From NCBI RefSeq assembly GCF_019061125.1, contig NZ_JAHQYI010000001.1:2046001-2110000 (forward strand): 64,000 nucleotides of DNA, written 5' to 3'. The notes below the pieces were generated by a model. The model searched no databases. It saw only the letters and a list, made by a program, of their open reading frames with translations, and was not told the origin of the DNA. A program made the translations under genes and the position numbers. Origin of the DNA: Microbacterium sp. NC79. Its GTDB lineage: Bacteria; Actinomycetota; Actinomycetes; Actinomycetales; Microbacteriaceae. How positions within the stretch are numbered: position 1 is the first letter of the stretch; each line of letters starts with the position of its first letter. Positions 48,917 through 62,680 of the stretch are shown here, one piece after another.

Positions 48917-51227
<2,311 letters not shown>

Positions 51228-51268
51228 GAGAGCGTCCTCTTTTCTGGAGTGCTTGTAGAGAGCGGCGG

Positions 51269-52774
51269 CTAGCTGTCTGGCGACATCGCCACGATGAGCC
51301 GGTGCTCTGAAATCTCGGATCCGTGCAGTTGTTCACTCACCTGGCCGTCGACCAGCACGAGCACGCGGTCGCACAGTCGGGTGAGGTCTTCGAGGTCGGA
51401 GGACGCAACAAGCACCGGCGTGCCAGTCGCGGCAACATCACGCACCTGTTCGTACATGGCTTTTCGTGCGCCAATGTCGACGCCACTCGTGGGGTCATCC
51501 ATGACGAGCAGGCGCGGCCCAACATTGAGCCATTTGCCGAAGATGACCTTCTGCCTGTTACCGCCAGAGAGCGCGGCATAGTCGCGGCTGGGCACGCGTG
51601 GCCGAATATCAAGGCGCTCCATCCAGAGGTCAACACGCTGCTTTTCAGCTGCTTTGTTGATCACACCGAATCGGGTGAGCCCGTCGATATCGCCCATCGT
51701 CAGGTTCTCGGCAATACTCATGCCGCGAACAGCGGCCCCGGGCTCACGGTTGGCGAGCACGAGCGCAATGCCCGCTCGAATCGCCGCCGCCGGCGTCAGT
51801 GATTCAAGTTGTTCTCCGTCAATCACGACGGTTTCTGCCCGCCCGTTGGCATCTCCGTAGAGAGCGGAGGCAACAGTCTCTCGGCCAGACCCGTCAAGGC
51901 CGGCCACTCCGACGATCTCGCCAGGTGCCAGTTCAACGTCGAACTGTCGAAGCGTCGTTGAGCTCAATCCCGAAATCGACACGCGTGCCGGTTGCCCCGT
52001 GGGTGCGGGGCGACGCTCGTCGTCAGCAGCAATCTCCTCGCCGACGATGAGAGCAGCAAGCCCGGCACGATCAAGTCCGGCTGTGGTCGTGCTGGCAACA
52101 ACGCGACCATCCCGCAACGCGGTGATGCCTGTGCAGAGTTGGGTGACCTCATCGAGGCGGTGCGAAACATACATCACGGCAACTCCGCGAGCTGCCACTT
52201 CTCGCACAATCTCAAAGAGACGTTCCACGTCATCGACGGGCAACGCCGCGGTCGGCTCGTCCAGCACCAGCAGCCGGGCGGGGCCGAGCTCCGAATCGTC
52301 GAGGCATCGCGCTACCGCGAGCGCCGTGCGTTCCACCGCGCTCAGGGTAGAAACCGGTGCGTCCAGATCGATCGTGACGCCAACACGCGCCAGGGATTCG
52401 GTCGCGATCTTGCGCAGCGGCGCCCAGTCGATACCAAACGTGCCGCGCGGGAATCCGCTCGTGAGGCCAAAGTTCTCAATGGCGCTGAACGCCTCGATGA
52501 GTCCGAGGTCCTGGTGTACAAAACGCAGACCGCTGTGCCGTGAGTCTTCGGGGCTACCGAGCTTGAGCGGGGAGCCTGCGACGAACACCTCTCCCCCATG
52601 ATCAGGGTGGTGAAAGCCCGACAGAATCTTGATCAGGGTCGATTTGCCCGACCCGTTTTCTCCCACGAGTGCGTGGACCTCGCCCGCCGCTATCGTCAGC
52701 GAGGCATCTTGCAACGCACGAGCGTCACCAAAGGTTTTCGATACGCCACGGAGGGCGAGGGCCACATCAGTCAT
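51269..52774 (-). CDS. Ribose-type ABC transporter ATP-binding protein (two ATPase domains)
   Basis: 501 aa. It has two fused ABC domains as in RbsA/MglA. The first has Walker A VGENGSGKSTLIKILSGFHH (about residue 33). The signature is degenerate (VSTLSAVERTALAVARCLDD) and Walker B is LLVLDEPTAAL. The second has a degenerate Walker A (GVAGLDGSGRETVASALYG), the usual RbsA pattern, with signature LSGGNRQKVIFGKWL. The ATG at 52774 lies two bases after the binding-protein stop. Confidence 0.93.
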   Translation of the reverse strand: MTDVALALRGVSKTFGDARALQDASLTIAAGEVHALVGENGSGKSTLIKILSGFHHPDHGGEVFVAGSPLKLGSPEDSRHSGLRFVHQDLGLIEAFSAIENFGLTSGFPRGTFGIDWAPLRKIATESLARVGVTIDLDAPVSTLSAVERTALAVARCLDDSELGPARLLVLDEPTAALPVDDVERLFEIVREVAARGVAVMYVSHRLDEVTQLCTGITALRDGRVVASTTTAGLDRAGLAALIVGEEIAADDERRPAPTGQPARVSISGLSSTTLRQFDVELAPGEIVGVAGLDGSGRETVASALYGDANGRAETVVIDGEQLESLTPAAAIRAGIALVLANREPGAAVRGMSIAENLTMGDIDGLTRFGVINKAAEKQRVDLWMERLDIRPRVPSRDYAALSGGNRQKVIFGKWLNVGPRLLVMDDPTSGVDIGARKAMYEQVRDVAATGTPVLVASSDLEDLTRLCDRVLVLVDGQVSEQLHGSEISEHRLIVAMSPDS

Positions 52775-52775
52775 G

Positions 52776-53900
52776 TCAGACGCCCCACAGTGCCTTGAAC
52801 TGGTCGGCGAAGTCAACGACCGAGGGGAACGTCTCGTCGCGCGATGGCAGGGTATCCTTCGTCACGATCCAGGCCGGGTATGTGTGCGCAACGGAAGGGG
52901 CGATATCTTCCCCGTTGAACATGCGCAACAAAGTATCGACGTGACGCCAAGCGAACTCGTACCCTGACGGGGTATCAATCGCCGCCAAATAGTCGCCGTC
53001 TGCGAGGTATCCCATTGCCGCCGCGCCGTAGCCGACGGTGACGAACCGTACGTTTTCTCCGACACCGCTCGCGCGCAGTGCGTCAGGCACACCGACCATC
53101 ATGTCGGCCCAGGCGAGGTTGACCCAGTTCACGTCCGGGTGCGACTGCAGGTACGTCACGATACGAGAGGACAGGTCACCGCCAAGTGCATCCACGGGCA
53201 GATCAACAACATCCGCCGTGCAGGATTCACAATTCTCAGAGATGGTGTCGGTGAAGGCGGCCGTGCCTATGGGGGTGACGTCCATTGCGCTGACCATGAA
53301 GGTGACGGCATTCGTCCCTGCACCAGACTGGCTCATCACGAAGTTTGCGAGACGCTCGCCAGCGGCCGCGAACTCTGCGGGCCCGAAGTGGTTAACCGGC
53401 ACCGACTCGGTGGGCTCCTGCGAACTGTTCATGTCGAGCACCGGAATGCCGCGCGCGGCAAGCGTTGCCGCTTCGTCAGCCCACACGGCCCGAGCGCTAC
53501 CTGAGGTAATGACGGCATCAGGATTGTCGAGCACTGCCTGACCCCACGCCGCCTTCGTATCTTCCGGGGTGAGACCCGAGTCGATGCGGGTGAGCGTCCA
53601 GCCCACCGCATCGATCGACGCCTCGATCGTGTTGCCAAGGTCTTGACATGCGGGCAGCGCGCACTGCATGAAGTAGATTTCCTTGTCAGCCGGCACGTCA
53701 CCCGCGATGGGTTCGTCGATACCGATGCTGGTGGGACGCAGCAGAACGTCTTTCACCTTAGCTGCGGCAGCGGTGGCGACTTTGTCGGTTGCCGGGGCCG
53801 CGTCGTCGCCTCCGCCCGCGGAACCATCCGCGGAGCAGGCAGTCAAAGCAAGGGTTGCGACGGCCAGCGTCGCGCCAAGGACAGCAAGTTTGCGATGCAT
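52776..53900 (-). CDS. Type I periplasmic-binding-fold substrate-binding lipoprotein
   Basis: 374 aa. Signal peptide with lipobox ALTACSADG, then two Rossmann-like lobes as in ribose-binding proteins: IYFMQCALPACQDLGNTIEA and DAVITSGSARAVWADEAATL. Four extra cysteines (QCALPAC, CESC) suggest disulfides, unlike RbsB. I use the ATG at 53900 with GAGAGG. It is the first gene of the importer operon and diverges from the SDR-dioxygenase genes; the ligand is unknown. Confidence 0.88.
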   Translation of the reverse strand: MHRKLAVLGATLAVATLALTACSADGSAGGGDDAAPATDKVATAAAAKVKDVLLRPTSIGIDEPIAGDVPADKEIYFMQCALPACQDLGNTIEASIDAVGWTLTRIDSGLTPEDTKAAWGQAVLDNPDAVITSGSARAVWADEAATLAARGIPVLDMNSSQEPTESVPVNHFGPAEFAAAGERLANFVMSQSGAGTNAVTFMVSAMDVTPIGTAAFTDTISENCESCTADVVDLPVDALGGDLSSRIVTYLQSHPDVNWVNLAWADMMVGVPDALRASGVGENVRFVTVGYGAAAMGYLADGDYLAAIDTPSGYEFAWRHVDTLLRMFNGEDIAPSVAHTYPAWIVTKDTLPSRDETFPSVVDFADQFKALWGV

Positions 53901-54140
53901 AAATTGGACCTCTCTGTTCATCGTTGAAAGCGAGTGCATGGGTGCTGGTGTCAGGCGAGGGGTACAGAATCCTCGTCCGGGATGCCTGATGCCAGCGGAA
54001 GCGACCATAGGAGCGCCGCTAGCGCGCCCGCCATCGAATGTCCCGCCAGCCGAAACATTTGCCATGGCGAAGCATCTTCCAGCCCTTAGATGACTCGAAA
54101 CGCCGTCAACGAAGCGGCGTCTCACTATGAAGGGAACATT
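53901..54140. promoter_or_regulatory. Divergent control region between importer and catabolic operons
   Basis: About 240 bp between two divergent first genes. It contains the palindrome core GCCATGGC (54061-54068 region) and a hairpin AACGCCG/CGGCGTC at about 54100-54122, just before the SDR ribosome site. No match to a known operator is certain, but shared control of both operons is likely. Confidence 0.45.
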
Positions 54141-55166: not shown

Positions 55167-56189
55167 TTGAGTAAGTACGACTACAACCCGGGCCCCACCA
55201 TCTCGCATGCCGCTGGAATCAACATCGGCACGCCTGATCTCGAGAAATCGCTGTGGTTTTTCCGCGATCTGCTCGGCATGGAGGTCACCGCCCAAACTGA
55301 GAACGTCGCGTACCTGCGGGGATACCAGGAGCACGTTCACCACTCCCTCACGCTGACGCGCCAGGCAAACTCGGCCGTGAACAGCCTGAGCTTCCGCGTC
55401 GGTCGACGAGAAGACGTGGAACTTTTTCACGACCGCATTCAGAAGTCGGAAACCGACGTTCTGGAACTTCCGTCAGGAAGCGAAGCGGGCCGCGGCGAAG
55501 CGATTCGCTTCCTGATCCCTGGTTCCAACCACCCTGTCGAGCTCTACTACGACATCGACCGCACCGCTGGTGACCCCGACCTGAAGTCACAGCTGCTTGG
55601 CAACTCGACGCGTCGCCGCGGTCTCGGAGTCCAGCGCATCGACCACCTGAACGTTTCGACAACGCCAAGCACGATCGGAACCGCTGAGCGTTGGATGCGC
55701 GAAGAGCTCGGCATGAAGCGTCGCGAGTACGCGGCAGCGGAACCGGGAACGGACGATCTGTGGGTGTCATGGTTGTCGGTGAACTCGCGTCTGCACGACA
55801 TTGCTATCGCAGCCAACGAGCAGGAAGGGGATGCCCGGTTCCACCACGTCGCTTTCCACCTCGCGAACTACCACGATGTCCTCACCGCCGCCGATGTGCT
55901 GCGCGACAACGGCATCCAGATTGACGCTGGCCCCGGCGTGCACGGCGTCGGCCAGGCGATGTACCTCTACGTGCGCGACCCCGGTTCGGGCCACCGCATC
56001 GAGCTGTACTCCGGCGGATACCCGTTCTTCGAGCCGGACTGGGAGGCGACGTACTGGGGAATCGCCGAAATGGGTGCAGGCATGACCTGGGTGGCAGACC
56101 TCCCGAACATGGACCCTGCCACCAGCACCTACGTGACCACGACGGCAATGTCGGGTCTCGAGTTCAACCGAGCTGGCGGCCAGGCTTAA
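55167..56189 (+). CDS. Extradiol ring-cleavage dioxygenase (VOC family, catechol 2,3-dioxygenase-like)
   Basis: 340 aa, TTG start after AGAGGAGAAAA. Two vicinal-oxygen-chelate modules: an N-terminal copy (INIGTPDLEKSLWFFRDLLG) and a catalytic C-terminal copy. The probable Fe ligands are His in VQRIDHLNVS, His in RFHHVAFHLANYHD and Glu in SGHRIELYSGGY, the class I extradiol pattern. It would open a catechol ring next to the diol. A hairpin follows, then the TetR gene. Confidence 0.88.
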   Translation: MSKYDYNPGPTISHAAGINIGTPDLEKSLWFFRDLLGMEVTAQTENVAYLRGYQEHVHHSLTLTRQANSAVNSLSFRVGRREDVELFHDRIQKSETDVLELPSGSEAGRGEAIRFLIPGSNHPVELYYDIDRTAGDPDLKSQLLGNSTRRRGLGVQRIDHLNVSTTPSTIGTAERWMREELGMKRREYAAAEPGTDDLWVSWLSVNSRLHDIAIAANEQEGDARFHHVAFHLANYHDVLTAADVLRDNGIQIDAGPGVHGVGQAMYLYVRDPGSGHRIELYSGGYPFFEPDWEATYWGIAEMGAGMTWVADLPNMDPATSTYVTTTAMSGLEFNRAGGQA

Positions 56190-56266: not shown

Positions 56267-56941
56267 ATGAATCAGCCCGCTGTGATCTCCGCGCGACCGG
56301 GGAAAAAGGCACCCCACGAGCCCCGCCGGCCAGGTGAACACCGCCAGAGCGCCGAAGTTCGCGAACGCATTTTGGACGCGACGCTCGAGGTTGCGCGTGA
56401 AAGCGGTTACCGCGGCCTCACGATCGCTCGCGTTTCGGCGGCGTCTGGCTATCCTTCCGGCAGCGTCTACTGGCATTTCGAGAACAAAGATGGCCTCTTG
56501 CGGGCCGCTCTCGACATCAGCTTCGAGCGTCAGGATGACGCGTTCCAGACGTTCGCGCCACGCGAGGGCGAGACCGCGCACGAGTATGTTGATCGATCGT
56601 TCGACAACATTCGTGGTTCCCAAGAGCCGTGGGAGTTCTGGCGCATCGGCGTCACGCTCATTAGTGACGAAATGGCCCCCGAAAAGCTGACGTTGCAGCG
56701 CTTCCGCGAGATCCGCGTCGAAGCGCGTGCCATGTATGCGCGGTGGTGGGCAGCCGTGCTTCCGCGCACCACTGGTTCCGTCCCCGGCCACACGCCAGAA
56801 GACTTCGCCGACCTCATGCTCGTCATCCACGATGGATTCGACGTTTCGCTTGCTTCTGGCGACTCCAGCGGTCGCCAAATTGACGTGTTCGCTGCCGCGT
56901 TTCACGCGATGGTCGACGTCGTCGAACGCGCCGCTACATGA
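56267..56941 (+). CDS. TetR-family transcriptional regulator
   Basis: 224 aa. The helix-turn-helix lies at about residues 30-75 (ILDATLEVARESGYRGLTIA then VSAASGYPSGSVYWHFENKD). The C-terminal ligand domain is diverged. Its place inside the catabolic set suggests it controls these genes in response to a pathway compound. Confidence 0.9.
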   Translation: MNQPAVISARPGKKAPHEPRRPGEHRQSAEVRERILDATLEVARESGYRGLTIARVSAASGYPSGSVYWHFENKDGLLRAALDISFERQDDAFQTFAPREGETAHEYVDRSFDNIRGSQEPWEFWRIGVTLISDEMAPEKLTLQRFREIRVEARAMYARWWAAVLPRTTGSVPGHTPEDFADLMLVIHDGFDVSLASGDSSGRQIDVFAAAFHAMVDVVERAAT

Positions 56942-57027: not shown

Positions 57028-57882
57028 ATGGCGGAAACTCCGCAGACGCCGTTCACGTTTGAGAACACCGCTCGTTTTGTGCAGACGCCCGGATTTCGGT
57101 TGCACTATCACGACGCCGGATCGGGAGATGTTGTTCTCTTCCTCCACGGAAGCGGCCCAGGTGCAACCGGCTGGAGCAACTTCCGTCTGAATATTGAGGC
57201 GATCGCAAAAACCCACCGCGTCCTGCTGCTCGATCAGCCAGGCTGGGGTGAGTCCGGCGCCTTTGAGAGTGCCCCGGGCGGACACCTGCAGGCGATCACT
57301 GAGTTTCTCGACACGCTCGGTATCGAGCGCGTCTCGCTCGTTGGCAACTCGATGGGCGGCATCAACGCCATCGAGTTCACGATGACGCACCCCGAACGCG
57401 TAGACAAGCTCATCACGATGGGGGCGCCGGACATGTCGCACCCCAACGTGTTCTCTCCCGGCGGCTTCTCGCTCGGGCTCCAGGCCGTCTATCACGGCTA
57501 CGTTGAGCGCACCCCTGCCGTCTACCGTCGCCTCGTCGATGTGATGACCTTTGGTGACGCTTTCCTCGACGATGACCTCATCGCGGAGCGACTGCAGTCC
57601 GCTCTCAACCACGAAGAGCACCTCGACGCGTTCTTGAAGCGTGGTTCCGCCCCTCGCATTGGACCGGAGTGGACCCAGGCGACGGTCGCGGCAATCACGC
57701 AGCCGACGCTGCTGATTCATGGTCGTGACGATCAGGTGGTTCCGTACGAGGCGACCCTGCGCCTGCTCACTATGATCCCCAACTCTCGTGCGCTGCTTTT
57801 CAACCAGTGCGGCCACTGGGCCCAGCTGGAAAAGGCTGACGAATTCAACCGGGTCGTATCTGGCTTCCTCCGCGAAGCCTGA
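57028..57882 (+). CDS. Meta-cleavage product hydrolase (alpha/beta hydrolase)
   Basis: 284 aa. HGSGPGATGWSNFRLNIEAI is the oxyanion-loop phrase typical of C-C bond hydrolases such as BphD/HsaD. The nucleophile is Ser in GNSMGG (about residue 107), Asp is in HGRDDQVVP and His in CGHWAQLEKAD. It would split the ring-opened product of the dioxygenase. Start ATG 57028 with AAGGAGG. Confidence 0.88.
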   Translation: MAETPQTPFTFENTARFVQTPGFRLHYHDAGSGDVVLFLHGSGPGATGWSNFRLNIEAIAKTHRVLLLDQPGWGESGAFESAPGGHLQAITEFLDTLGIERVSLVGNSMGGINAIEFTMTHPERVDKLITMGAPDMSHPNVFSPGGFSLGLQAVYHGYVERTPAVYRRLVDVMTFGDAFLDDDLIAERLQSALNHEEHLDAFLKRGSAPRIGPEWTQATVAAITQPTLLIHGRDDQVVPYEATLRLLTMIPNSRALLFNQCGHWAQLEKADEFNRVVSGFLREA

Positions 57883-57913: not shown

Positions 57914-59104
57914 GTGGTTCACTCACTGACGGCCGAAGAAGAAACTCTGGTCCCGATCACTGACATCGTGGAAGAGCTCGCCGCTGATGCGATTGCCTGC
58001 GACGAAGCCAACCAGCTCACCGCAAAGAGCGTCGCGCTGCTGAAGTCCACGGGCGTGACCCGCATGATGCAGCCACGCGACCGTGGCGGCCTTGAGACAC
58101 ACCCTTCCGACTACTGCGCCGCGCTCATCGAGATCGCATCACATGCGCCCAGCGCCGGCTGGGTTGCCGGCGTTGTCGGCGTACACCCGTGGCAGTTTGC
58201 GTGGCTTTCGCCTCGGCTTCAAGAAGAAGTATGGGGCGAAGACCCGAACACCTGGATCGCGTCACCGTACGCGCCGACCGGAACCGCACGTCGTGTTGAC
58301 GGCGGATACATCTTTAACGGTCGCTGGCAGTTCTCCAGCGGCGCTGACAACTGCCAGTGGGACGTGCTCGCCGGTATTGAGGTTGACGATGAGGGCAAGC
58401 CGATTCCAGGCGCTGTGCGTCACTTCGTCCTTCCCCGCGCCGACTACACGATTGTTCCGGATTCCTGGGATGTCGCGGGTCTTCGTGGAACCGGTTCGAA
58501 GGACGTCATCGTCAAGGACGCGTTTGTGCCTGACTACCGCAGCGCATCGGCCGAAGAGGTCTTCGGCGGCGGTCTCTCGCGTATCAACCGTCCGGGCAAC
58601 CCGCTGTACGCACTGCCGTTCAACGTGATGTTCCCCGCCGCAGTGAGCTCGGCGACGATCGGTATCGCAAAGGGCCTCGTTGATCGCTACCGCGAGTACA
58701 CCGCATCGCGCGTTGACATTCTCGGCGTGAAGGCCGTGGAACACCCGTTCCGCATGGCGGCGCTCGGCGCCGCGACGGCCGACATTGAGGCTTCGGTGTT
58801 GCAGGTCACGGAAGATCTCCGTCGCCTCTACCAGCACGCGGCAGATGGCGGCGTCATTACTCCGGAAATGCACTACGCAGCGCGCCGCAACCAGGTGCGT
58901 TCCGTGCGCCGTGCGTACGAGGCTGCGCTCATGGTGTTCCGTCACGCAGGCGGGACCGCAAACCGACTCGACAACCCGATCCAGCGGTTCCACCGCGACC
59001 TGGCAATCGCCATGGGTCACGCTGCAAACCAGGATGACCTCGTCTACCAGGCGGAGGCGATGTACTCGCTCGGCGCTCCCATTCCGCCGGGAACCTACAT
59101 CTAA
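57914..59104 (+). CDS. Flavin-dependent monooxygenase, acyl-CoA-dehydrogenase fold (HsaA/HpaH-like)
   Basis: 396 aa from a GTG after AAAGGAAC. ALKSTGVTRMMQPRDRGGLE-type phrases, WQFSSGADNCQWDVLAGIEV and the C-terminal RDLAIAMGHAANQDDLVYQA match the oxygenase component of two-component aromatic hydroxylases rather than a true acyl-CoA dehydrogenase. It needs reduced flavin from a partner reductase, for which the flavin reductase fusion at 60162-61334 is the obvious candidate. It follows the C-C hydrolase by 31 bp. Confidence 0.88.
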   Translation: MVHSLTAEEETLVPITDIVEELAADAIACDEANQLTAKSVALLKSTGVTRMMQPRDRGGLETHPSDYCAALIEIASHAPSAGWVAGVVGVHPWQFAWLSPRLQEEVWGEDPNTWIASPYAPTGTARRVDGGYIFNGRWQFSSGADNCQWDVLAGIEVDDEGKPIPGAVRHFVLPRADYTIVPDSWDVAGLRGTGSKDVIVKDAFVPDYRSASAEEVFGGGLSRINRPGNPLYALPFNVMFPAAVSSATIGIAKGLVDRYREYTASRVDILGVKAVEHPFRMAALGAATADIEASVLQVTEDLRRLYQHAADGGVITPEMHYAARRNQVRSVRRAYEAALMVFRHAGGTANRLDNPIQRFHRDLAIAMGHAANQDDLVYQAEAMYSLGAPIPPGTYI

Positions 59105-59176: not shown

Positions 59177-60004
59177 CTATCGGGTGGCCGTCGCTGCGGC
59201 CTTTCGCAACTGCATCTGGTCAAGGTGAGCAACGGTGAGCGCGCGCGACGCGGCACGGGCTGCCTTGTGCACGCTTTGGGCCAGGTTTTCCGTTCCTGCC
59301 ACACCGGCATCCCACGACAACGAGATCGCGGCAACGGCCTTACCGTCGAGTCCCGGAACGGGTGCGGCGACACAGCGGATAGTGCTGACCGTCTCACCTC
59401 GATCAATCGCGTGGCCGTCAAGACGGATGCGCGACAGCTCCTGCGACAATTCGCGCTGATTCGAGACCGTTGCTGGCGTCCATTTCACGAACTCAACGTC
59501 CTGCAGACGCCGGAGCGCAGGCGCATTGAACGCCAGCATCGCCTTACCGACCGCGGTGGAGTATGCCGGGGCACGTCCGCCGATGCGCACAGGCGAGCGT
59601 GACGAGCGCGTGTCCTGCAGCTTGTTGAGGTACACCACGTCGGAACCATCAAGCACGGCAAGGTGCGTCGTGAAGCCCGTCGACGCGTAAAGTTCAGCAA
59701 TGTGTGGCGTCAGGAGCTCCCGGATCCAGTCGTGTTGCATGCGCCGAGGTGAGGCCTGCATTTGCGTGAAAAGCGCGCCGCGACGATAGAGCTTGCCGAC
59801 GCGTGCGATTGCGCCGCCGGACTCCATCGACCCCAAAATGCGGTGCGCCGTCGATTTGCTGAGCTGTGCGCGACGAGCGAGTTCGGAGACGCCGAGCCCA
59901 TCGTGCGCATCATCGCCAAATGCTCGAAGGAGGTCTAACGCCTTGCCAATCGAGGTGCGGCTGTCCGCGTCCAACGCGTCTGCCGATTGCAGTACAGCTT
60001 CCAT
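59177..60004 (-). CDS. IclR-family transcriptional regulator
   Basis: 275 aa. The N-terminal winged helix-turn-helix (IGKALDLLRAF, LGVSELARRAQLSKSTAHRI) at about residues 18-75 is followed by the IclR effector domain with VRIGGRAPAYSTAVGKAMLA and ending RCVAAPVPGLDGKAVAAISL. The ATG at 60004 has AAGGAG. A 14-bp palindrome lies 47 bp upstream. It probably controls this catabolic region. Confidence 0.92.
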   Translation of the reverse strand: MEAVLQSADALDADSRTSIGKALDLLRAFGDDAHDGLGVSELARRAQLSKSTAHRILGSMESGGAIARVGKLYRRGALFTQMQASPRRMQHDWIRELLTPHIAELYASTGFTTHLAVLDGSDVVYLNKLQDTRSSRSPVRIGGRAPAYSTAVGKAMLAFNAPALRRLQDVEFVKWTPATVSNQRELSQELSRIRLDGHAIDRGETVSTIRCVAAPVPGLDGKAVAAISLSWDAGVAGTENLAQSVHKAARAASRALTVAHLDQMQLRKAAATATR

Positions 60005-60050: not shown

Positions 60051-60064
60051 ACGTTCTAGAACGT
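60051..60064. promoter_or_regulatory. Palindromic operator candidate upstream of the iclR-type gene
   Basis: ACGTTCTAGAACGT is a perfect 14-bp palindrome in the iclR promoter region. Size and symmetry fit an IclR autoregulatory site; binding is inferred. Confidence 0.55.
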
Positions 60065-60099: not shown

Positions 60100-60137
60100 G
60101 CCCCGATCCCACTCATCAGGATGAGCAGAATCGGGGC
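60100..60137. terminator. Terminator downstream of the flavin reductase fusion gene
   Basis: Outer stem GCCCCGAT / ATCGGGGC with an inner CTCAT/ATGAG hairpin, 24 bp after the stop on the minus strand. Confidence 0.65.
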
Positions 60138-60161: not shown

Positions 60162-61334
60162 CTAAGCGCCGGCGGCAAGCTCCTCAGCGACCGCACGCGC
60201 GGTGTCTCGCAGCCGCTCGCCAAGTCGTTCCAACTCAGCAGGCGACATGTTCTCCGAAAGCCCAAACAGCGCAAGAACCAATGGGCAGCGCCCCGCTACC
60301 CAAACGGGTGCGGTCAAGATTCGCGGCTGCTCGTCATGCTGCGGCAACCCCGGCGGGTCGTAGTAGGGCAAGAGCTCATCCAACAGGCTTGCGTGCCGTC
60401 GCGCACCCGCCGGTGTCGGTGGTTCCGCACTCGTGCGCGCAATTTCTGCCCAGATTGCGTCGAAGCGGGGAGTGAAGAGGCCATATGACCAGCCTCGGGC
60501 CGCGATGGTCTCGAGCTTGAGTCGGTAAGCCGCTCGTTGCTCATCAGTGACACGGAGGTGCGAGGTCCATTGCGTTACGCCCTCATCCAGGTCACCCCCG
60601 GTCAAGAACGCGGCTCCAAACGGCGGCGCAAACGGCATCCGCCGACCGATCTGCGTGCGTGAGGACTCCCCCGTCGCTGCCACAATAACGATGTCGTGAT
60701 CGACGATCGCCTGCGCAATACACGCGACGTCCAGCTCGTCAGAGAGCGCCTCCATGTGCGTCTTGGCGATGTGCGCCGCATGCAATGGCTCACGAAGATT
60801 GTCAGCGAAGGGCGCGATCAGGGAGCGCGAGCGGAACCCGCCATACCCGCCCTGATAGAACAGGAGCGCACTTGAGTGGTGTGCTGCTTCCAACTCCAAC
60901 ACGCGACCCAGCACAATGTCATGATCGCCGCCGTCGACCGTCCGCTCGACCGCACAGTCGATCCAGGCAACGGCACCTTCGAGTCGCGGCGAGCCGCTTT
61001 CAGATAGATGCCACTGCACATCCGCAAACTTATCGACGTTCTTGGACGCAAAGCGTCGGCACAATTGCTCGTGTTCAACAGACAAGACGTTGACGCAGAA
61101 GCGGTCGGCCTGCCGCAGCGTGGCGTAGCTGGCCGATGACTTCGTCGGCAGGTAAGCAACAAGAGGCGGGTCGAGAGACACCGACGTGAACGACCCCACG
61201 ACCATTCCCGCAGGCTGGCCGTTCACCATTGCCGTGACGGCCACCACACCCGTGGGAAAGTTGCCAAGCGTCTCGCGAAAAACCATCGCATCAATCTCGT
61301 TGCGTCGTTCATGATCCAGCACCGTTGCCGACAT
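60162..61334 (-). CDS. Flavin reductase fused to an IclR-like ligand-binding domain
   Basis: 390 aa. Residues 1-165 are a flavin reductase of the HpaC/HsaB type: FRETLGNFPTGVVAVTAMVN, GMVVGSFTSVSLDPPLVAYL and ALLFYQGGYGGF. Residues 175-390 match the effector domain of IclR regulators (IGRRMPFAPPFGAAFL, cf. the usual GxRxPLHPPLGAVFLAW, and ARGWSYG) but there is no helix-turn-helix. The likely job is to supply reduced flavin to the monooxygenase, with the sensor domain binding a pathway aromatic and adjusting activity. Start ATG 61334 with AGAGGTGATG. Confidence 0.85.
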   Translation of the reverse strand: MSATVLDHERRNEIDAMVFRETLGNFPTGVVAVTAMVNGQPAGMVVGSFTSVSLDPPLVAYLPTKSSASYATLRQADRFCVNVLSVEHEQLCRRFASKNVDKFADVQWHLSESGSPRLEGAVAWIDCAVERTVDGGDHDIVLGRVLELEAAHHSSALLFYQGGYGGFRSRSLIAPFADNLREPLHAAHIAKTHMEALSDELDVACIAQAIVDHDIVIVAATGESSRTQIGRRMPFAPPFGAAFLTGGDLDEGVTQWTSHLRVTDEQRAAYRLKLETIAARGWSYGLFTPRFDAIWAEIARTSAEPPTPAGARRHASLLDELLPYYDPPGLPQHDEQPRILTAPVWVAGRCPLVLALFGLSENMSPAELERLGERLRDTARAVAEELAAGA

Positions 61335-61648: not shown

Positions 61649-62680
61649 ATGAAGAAAATCGGCTTCCTCTCTTTCGGGCACTGGACTCCTCACCCGGACT
61701 CCCAAACCCGCTCGGCTCGTGACGTGCTGCACCAGTCGATCGACCTCGCGGTCGCCGCGGAAGAAATCGGCGCCGACGGCGCATACTTCCGTGTGCACCA
61801 CTACGCCCGCCAGCTCGCTTCTCCCTTCCCGCTCCTGGCGGCGATCGGCGCGAAGACATCCAAGATCGAAATCGGTACGGGCGTCATCGACATGCGCTAC
61901 GAAAATCCGCTCTACATGGCGGAAGATGCGGGAGCCGCCGACCTCATTTCCGATGGCCGACTTCAACTCGGCGTGAGCCGTGGGTCACCCGAGCAGGTCG
62001 TCGATGGCTACAAGTACTTTGGCTATGACGCTCCCGAAGGCATGACGATGGCTGACGTCGCGCGCAACAACACCGAGACATTTCTTCAAGTCATCGACGG
62101 TGCACGTTTCGCCGAGCCCAATCCGCGGCCAATGTTCCCAAACCCACACCCGGGCGCACTCGGTATCGAGCCGCAGTCCGCTGGGCTCCGTGATCGCATT
62201 TGGTGGGGTGCGGGGTCTAATGCCACCGCCGTCTGGGCAGCCCAAGCTGGCATGAACTTGATGAGCTCGACGCTGAAGGCCGATGAAAGCGGTAAGCCTT
62301 TCCACATTCAGCAGCGTGAGCAGATCGATGCCTTCCGTGACGCGTGGAAGGAAGCCGGCCATGAGCGCGAAGCTCGTGTCTCGGTGAGCCGATCCATTTT
62401 TGCGCTCACGTCAGACGAGGACTACCGCTACTTCGGCTTCGACCGCGATACCGACGATCAGATTGGCACCATCGGCGGCGACCCCATCGGCCGCGCCATC
62501 TTTGGCCGCTCGTTTGCTGCTGAGCCCGAAGCTCTCATCGAGCAGCTTCGCGGCGACGAGGCGATCGAAGCCGCAGACACCCTGCTCCTCACCGTGCCTA
62601 ATCAGCTCGGCGTTGCCTACAACACGCACGTGATCGAGTCGATCATTAAGCACGTAGCCCCCGCGCTCGGCTGGCGCTAA
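61649..62680 (+). CDS. LLM-class (luciferase-like) flavin-dependent oxidoreductase
   Basis: 343 aa TIM-barrel enzyme. Family phrases: DLAVAAEEIGADGAYFRVHH, IGTGVIDMRYENPLYMAEDA, LISDGRLQLGVSRGSPEQVV and WAAQAGMNLMSSTL. These bind FMN or F420; from sequence alone I cannot tell which. The ATG at 61649 has only a weak ribosome site. It diverges from the flavin reductase fusion and may use its reduced flavin. Confidence 0.88.
   Translation: MKKIGFLSFGHWTPHPDSQTRSARDVLHQSIDLAVAAEEIGADGAYFRVHHYARQLASPFPLLAAIGAKTSKIEIGTGVIDMRYENPLYMAEDAGAADLISDGRLQLGVSRGSPEQVVDGYKYFGYDAPEGMTMADVARNNTETFLQVIDGARFAEPNPRPMFPNPHPGALGIEPQSAGLRDRIWWGAGSNATAVWAAQAGMNLMSSTLKADESGKPFHIQQREQIDAFRDAWKEAGHEREARVSVSRSIFALTSDEDYRYFGFDRDTDDQIGTIGGDPIGRAIFGRSFAAEPEALIEQLRGDEAIEAADTLLLTVPNQLGVAYNTHVIESIIKHVAPALGWR

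Follow-up and report, generated by a model that had tools for sequence, protein, structure and literature searches.

Here we describe a protein from Microbacterium sp. NC79 in which a flavin reductase of the HpaC/HsaB class is joined to an IclR-type effector domain with no detectable HTH part. Its gene lies in a 64,000-nucleotide stretch of contig NZ_JAHQYI010000001.1 (hereafter the window), beside genes of an aromatic catabolic cluster of the meta-cleavage type. The same two-domain architecture recurs across phyla with a conserved sensor core, shares ancestry with an HTH-bearing subfamily of IclR regulators and is linked to monooxygenase genes. We propose that the protein is probably a substrate-gated NAD(P)H:flavin reductase that would follow the logic of AbHpaC, with a sensor of the IclR type. 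A search of the open-licence PMC literature, covering titles and the beginnings of abstracts, returned no description of a flavin reductase–IclR fusion; absence is not proof, and the proteins themselves are already in public databases, yet the IclR-sensor variant of a substrate-gated flavin reductase is apparently undescribed in open PMC text.

A continuous frame for two domains

The fused gene (P0001; positions 60162–61334, reverse strand) is a single open reading frame, open through 390 codons, and GAGGAGAGG, which by eye reads as a ribosome-binding-like sequence, stands just 5′ of its ATG. Directly 3′ of the gene lies a terminator-like hairpin of 17 pairs with a T-rich tail (60100–60137, reverse strand), and the gene therefore probably has its own transcript; overall, the hairpin scan gave 7 sites, against 5.2 in shuffled sequences. 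A contig scan of 84,980 species returned at least 562 related stretches, and in each of the best 79 loci, which were kept, we found one continuous fused frame, encoding 379–425 residues from the start chosen. The intact frame and the identical architecture in these best 79 loci rule out a frameshift or assembly artefact as the source of the two-part protein that the earlier note had read from the window.

In the AlphaFold model of the full protein (pLDDT 90.2, pTM 0.75), the two domains are connected by a low-confidence linker (residues 167–177; 60804–60836, reverse strand), with a mean pLDDT of 65–67 over residues 161–180, so that the model does not fix how the domains dock. A Foldseek search with the full model gave reductases throughout the best 50 rows, with SMa0793 (3rh7) at ranks 3, 5 and 6 and AbHpaC (5zc2 and 5zyr) at ranks 7–9.

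The flavin reductase domain (residues 15–166; 60837–61292, reverse strand) contains GDH and GGYG motifs and matches Pfam Flavin_Reduct over residues 24–166 (E = 6e-43; 147 bits, against a cut-off of 27) as well as PDB entry 3nfw (E = 2e-38). We aligned 86 fused proteins; all 86 match Flavin_Reduct, and G136, D137 and H138 are invariant among them. The best NCBIfam model is that of HsaB, the reductase of the HsaAB steroid monooxygenase, which aligns with residues 12–172 at 176.6 bits, below the 230 bits of the equivalog NF045630. The HsaB model comprises 186 positions without a sensor domain, whereas the fused protein carries one, and an HsaA-like oxygenase is encoded nearby in the window. The MarR-type model NF045919 covers residues 12–166 only and scores 129.4 bits, against its cut-off of 340. 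Judged by its sequence, the N-terminal half is a flavin reductase of the HpaC/HsaB class, as had been proposed for the first ~165 residues under the name of a two-component-monooxygenase flavin reductase, and NAD(P)H-dependent reductase activity would be expected of it. In the source genome, the whole-protein query found two more matches, each confined to the reductase half, and the Flavin_Reduct model matched four places in total.

A predicted IclR-type effector domain in the C-terminal half

The Pfam IclR_C match of the window protein alone is marginal, covering residues 185–283 at 14.2 bits, below the 24-bit cut-off (E = 0.03), and reaching 17 bits (E = 0.0046) when the C-terminal half is searched by itself; its relatives therefore decide the identity of the domain. 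IclR_C matches 58 of the 86 fused proteins at E ≤ 0.01 (best 3e-14), and the window protein is one of the 28 that have no match at this threshold. A profile built from 80 fused C-terminal halves, including that of the window, matched 19 sequences in the PDB at E ≤ 0.1, every one of the IclR type (best 1.9e-16), counting three titled just 'transcriptional regulator' that we take to be members of the family. When the profile of the whole protein was searched, three weak and unrelated matches (E = 0.2–0.6) appeared besides reductases and IclR proteins. Alignment of the fused C-terminal halves with 23 IclR proteins (the window's own regulator and 22 from relative loci) by hhalign gave E = 1e-14 over 159 columns, as compared with E = 0.04–0.64 for six decoy families. 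With the window's row removed, the C-terminal profile matched two of the 278 window reading frames of at least 100 codons, namely the fused gene at 172 bits and, at 34 bits, the IclR regulator next to it.

The predicted structure points to the same family. AlphaFold modelled the C-terminal half alone at pLDDT 93.8 and pTM 0.90, and Foldseek with this model retrieved 68 structures at E ≤ 0.001, the best 50 of which are all IclR-type (E = 1.8e-7 to 1.4e-4), where some titles are presumed by us to denote IclR proteins. The TM-scores are moderate, at 0.42–0.59 by query length and up to 0.73 by target length. The matches include the 4-hydroxybenzoate entries 7dqb and 7cuo and PobR with PHB (5w1e). 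Pfam searches with the whole window protein and with its C-terminal half detected no HTH, and the reductase sits in the position of HTH_IclR. Taken together, the profile of the relatives and the predicted fold identify residues 178–389 (60168–60803, reverse strand) as an IclR-type effector domain, and the proposal that the last ~215 residues are such a domain without its DNA-binding part is upheld by family profile, hhalign and fold prediction alike. The fused C-terminal half thus has its effector fold and sequence profile in common with IclR regulators (PcaR, PobR, BlcR, KdgR and others), but the fused protein differs from them in the absence of an HTH, in the catalytic domain that takes its place and in an added two-helix insertion.

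Nine residues of the sensor core (R191, G230, P234, P237, P238, G240, W256, G281 and P343) are kept at 90% or more in the 86 rows. Identity over 3160 pairs is 29% in the C-terminal half versus 56% in the N-terminal half. A conserved core together with low identity is what is expected of a sensor scaffold whose members have differing ligands.

The insertion and the ancestry of the sensor

The two-helix insertion (residues 291–324; 60363–60464, reverse strand), with predicted helices at 291–302 and 308–324, falls in an extra stretch of ~45 residues for which five solved IclR domains show a gap when aligned with the fused domain. The adjacent IclR regulator is a distant homologue of the fused domain (blastp E = 0.16), matched by the family profile at E = 3e-11 in two pieces. 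An HTH-bearing IclR regulator from another genome (L009) is matched by the C-domain profile in one piece that includes the insertion (E ~2e-32 to 3.5e-32). Further relatives of the insertion type came from a survey covering 197 genomes of the class; of 30 loci retrieved, 24 were classified, the reductase being present in 10 and absent from 14. HTH_IclR scored above its cut-off in all seven insertion-type regulators tested with Pfam (L009 and six others). This HTH-bearing subfamily (L157, L160, L161, L009 and others) contains the closest C-domain relatives found, which align with the profile, insertion included, over almost its full length; they have their own HTH_IclR and no reductase, and the fused protein is the reverse.

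In the effector-domain tree (L166 left out), the 14 HTH-bearing insertion-type rows, of which six and L009 were checked with Pfam, form one group (support 98). The three labels require just two changes on this tree, the minimum, which fits a single replacement of the HTH by the reductase. In another tree, built with 40 of the 80 fused rows, the split between fused and regulator rows is weakly supported (31). In the reductase-domain tree, from which L109 and L115 were omitted, 83 fused rows, among them a TetR-type protein (L125, see below), share a branch with 4 unfused rows (support 98). An AU test on a thinned set of 42 fused and 27 other rows, made by taking every second fused row and dropping L002 and L127, did not reject a single fused clade (p = 0.267). 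The four reductases without a C-terminal domain inside the fused branch show that the sensor is dispensable in places. The idea that the sensor was borrowed from a regulator therefore holds as far as common ancestry with the HTH-bearing IclR subfamily goes, but the adjacent regulator is probably not the donor, since the insertion-sharing subfamily is closer in sequence.

A catabolic cluster around the fused gene

At lower positions of the window, four forward-strand genes encode an extradiol dioxygenase resembling catechol 2,3-dioxygenase and HpaD (55167–56189), a TetR-family regulator of the cluster (56267–56941; Pfam), an HsaD/BphD-like C–C bond hydrolase of a meta-cleavage pathway (57028–57882) and an HsaA-like flavin-dependent oxygenase (57914–59104), a candidate partner of the reductase. 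The dioxygenase and the hydrolase were assigned by NCBIfam matches below the equivalog cut-offs, and the oxygenase by an HsaA match of 335 bits, below the cut-off of 450. They are followed by the intact, separate IclR regulator (59177–60004, reverse strand), in which both HTH_IclR and IclR_C exceed their Pfam cut-offs. On the other side of the fused gene, and divergent from it, lies a gene for a luciferase-like (LLM) monooxygenase (61649–62680, forward strand; Pfam Bac_luciferase, E = 4e-27), a second candidate partner. The neighbours are thus as the earlier note described them, an intact IclR regulator and a monooxygenase, which we find to be HsaA-like, with the LLM enzyme in addition.

Upstream of the IclR gene lies a perfect palindrome of 14 bp (60051–60064, forward strand), the sole perfect copy in the window and a candidate operator for autoregulation; the longest IclR frame would start at a GTG that overlaps it, and the ATG at 60004 is therefore favoured as the start. 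An IclR operator near the fused gene was also considered and rejected, as there is no second perfect palindrome and three copies with 2–3 mismatches lie outside the intergenic regions examined. Beside the cluster, at 50145–53921, genes judged by eye to encode a ribose-type ABC importer (binding protein, ATPase and permease) are present, and permease-like and ATPase-like genes recur, also by eye, near the fused genes of relatives.

Candidate monooxygenase partners across loci

We counted neighbouring genes in 78 loci, no fused gene having been called in L086. Genes for LLM or HsaA-like enzymes occupy position −1 in 18 of 77 loci, 17 of them on the same strand, and position +1 in 4 of 77. Monooxygenase genes fill 22 of 154 adjacent positions versus 25 of 490 at positions 5–9 (Fisher p = 5e-4), a comparison that somewhat favours near positions because the profiles were built from genes within three positions. 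An LLM or HsaA-like gene is found within three genes in 43 of the 78 loci and in none of the other 35. Pfam searches with seven representatives confirmed both partner classes, which belong to unrelated families, luciferase-like and acyl-CoA-dehydrogenase-like. At E ≤ 1e-6, the neighbourhood of the fused gene contains no other flavin reductase match in 78 of 79 loci, L027 having a second.

On the C-domain tree, the partner class changes 4 times over 50 labelled rows (28 loci have neither class within four genes), compared with 14.4 times when labels are shuffled, and none of 500 shuffles gave a number as low; common descent alone may be the source of this clustering. The window protein belongs to a C-domain clade of seven rows (support 98) in which the nearest partner gene of each of the other six encodes an LLM enzyme, and their LLM proteins are only distantly related to that of the window. 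An HsaA-like protein scoring at least 470 bits is present in 12 of 79 loci, and in L056 and L093 its gene lies directly upstream on the same strand. We consider the HsaA-like enzyme a plausible partner, as the earlier note had assumed when it named the adjoining monooxygenase as the user of the reduced flavin, but the six relatives in the fused protein's clade indicate that the LLM enzyme may be the partner instead; the partner could be either enzyme or both. Near the fused gene of Arthrobacter mobilis (L070), a close homologue of the window's LLM protein (711 bits) is encoded.

Distribution of the fusion

The reductase–IclR fusion is not unique to the window but widespread. The best 79 loci come mostly from Actinomycetota and also from Pseudomonadota (Pseudomonas, Pandoraea, Sphingomonas, Methylobacterium and Bordetella); ranked by similarity to the fused query, they establish the architecture as genuine and frequent rather than show how often the sensor is absent. 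Among 297 genomes of the order, 8 gave a match of full length (E ≤ 1e-40, covering at least 380 of 393 positions), as did 2 of 13 within the genus, a patchy distribution that would be expected of horizontally moved catabolic clusters. In the three annotated plasmids examined, the fused protein carries the annotation 'flavin reductase'. An 848-codon frame upstream in L086, and similar long frames elsewhere, were considered as an extra fused oxygenase and set aside as GC-rich non-coding sequence, judged by eye. In Rhodococcus and Sphingobium plasmids (L011, 8662–8883; L012, 7752–7976), a gene for dodecin, a flavin-binding protein, lies directly upstream of the fused gene; as a conserved neighbour it was discarded, being matched in just 1 of 79 loci.

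Proposed gating of flavin reduction and competing explanations

AbHpaC (C1; 5zc2 and 5zyr), the reductase of p-hydroxyphenylacetate 3-hydroxylase from Acinetobacter baumannii, has a homologous N-terminal reductase (E = 7.5e-31), and in it, as in the fused protein, the reductase is followed by a C-terminal regulator-derived domain. According to a review, the C-terminal MarR domain of AbHpaC inhibits the enzyme until 4-hydroxyphenylacetate binds, whereupon flavin reduction rises at least 30-fold (PMC10816480). The precedent invoked by the earlier note for substrate switching in HpaC-type partners is sound as regards ligand gating, but the sensor of AbHpaC is of the MarR type and not an IclR effector.

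By analogy, we favour a mechanism in which the N-terminal domain would supply reduced flavin to the flavin-dependent monooxygenases of the local aromatic cluster, and the C-terminal domain would sense a small molecule, the enzyme having taken the place of its original DNA-binding part. A pathway compound entering the sensor pocket would relieve an inhibition of flavin reduction or release, and NADH consumption, like the formation of peroxide from free reduced flavin, would be confined to times when substrate is present. The earlier suggestion of an electron supply switched by the aromatic substrate is backed by this context, that is, by the AbHpaC analogy and the monooxygenase neighbours; the switching itself would be a transfer from the analogue.

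The most serious alternative, although on balance an unlikely one, is that the C-terminal domain serves for docking or oligomerization and keeps the reductase close to its monooxygenase, with no ligand switch involved. IclR effector domains also mediate dimer and tetramer contacts, and partner class tracks the C-domain tree, both of which suit docking; however, the partners come from two unrelated families, and what the other C-terminal domains found on this reductase type (MarR and TetR ligand domains) share is ligand sensing and not a docking surface. Inhibition of the reductase in response to an end product, or to a redox or flavin signal, detected by the domain is decidedly improbable. The sequence gives no indication of whether control is positive or negative, and PDB titles attest to varied ligands of IclR domains, but the analogue AbHpaC is reported to be substrate-activated. 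Slighter still is the chance that the fused protein acts as an anti-regulator, its effector domain mixing with a true IclR regulator to report the state of the enzyme or of redox to transcription. Effector domains of this family self-associate, and an intact IclR gene adjoins the fused gene of the window, but that regulator and the fused domain are only distantly related, and just 19 of 79 fused genes have an IclR regulator nearby (window-IclR profile, E ≤ 1e-6; some neighbourhoods end at contig ends). Least credible of all is a vestige without present function, for although identity in the C-terminal half is low (29%) and four reductases inside the fused branch lack the domain, it is full length in the best 79 loci, across phyla, with invariant or near-invariant core residues and a confident predicted fold.

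Regulator sensors on the reductase scaffold

A protein annotated as a flavin reductase on a plasmid of Arthrobacter sulfonylureivorans (L125; NZ_CP093327.1, 2974–4086) combines Flavin_Reduct with TetR_C_24 (E = 6e-20) and gave no HTH match. Its reductase domain lies inside the fused branch, but its sensor is of the TetR type instead of IclR. It is a single example, the only one at a coverage of at least 80% among 72,556 plasmid records; its C-terminal half, used as a query against 345 genomes, found matches in 92, the three best in frames of 234 codons, the size of TetR regulators. In Aminobacter (L015), a weak MarR_2 match follows the reductase, as in AbHpaC.

With MarR in AbHpaC, IclR here and TetR in L125, the reductases of two-component monooxygenases could be a scaffold that repeatedly takes up the sensors of regulators, in which case post-translational control of electron supply would be widespread in aromatic catabolism and many 'flavin reductases' of ~390 residues would be sensors; we regard this wider proposal as evenly balanced. 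Should substrate gating of the fused reductase be real, a large and almost unnoticed reductase family would be under allosteric control by pathway compounds, which would explain how waste of NADH and peroxide from free reduced flavin are avoided. Such proteins would be ligand-switched electron suppliers ready for use in biocatalysis and biosensors, and the substrates of orphan monooxygenases could be found by ligand screens of the fused sensor. Repeated capture of sensors by one enzyme scaffold would also represent a clear and directly testable case of modular evolution. In five further loci (L104, L106, L108, L110 and L112), which form a branch of their own (support 100), the reductase is followed by a domain of 217–268 residues that by eye resembles a TIM barrel of the HMGL/aldolase type.
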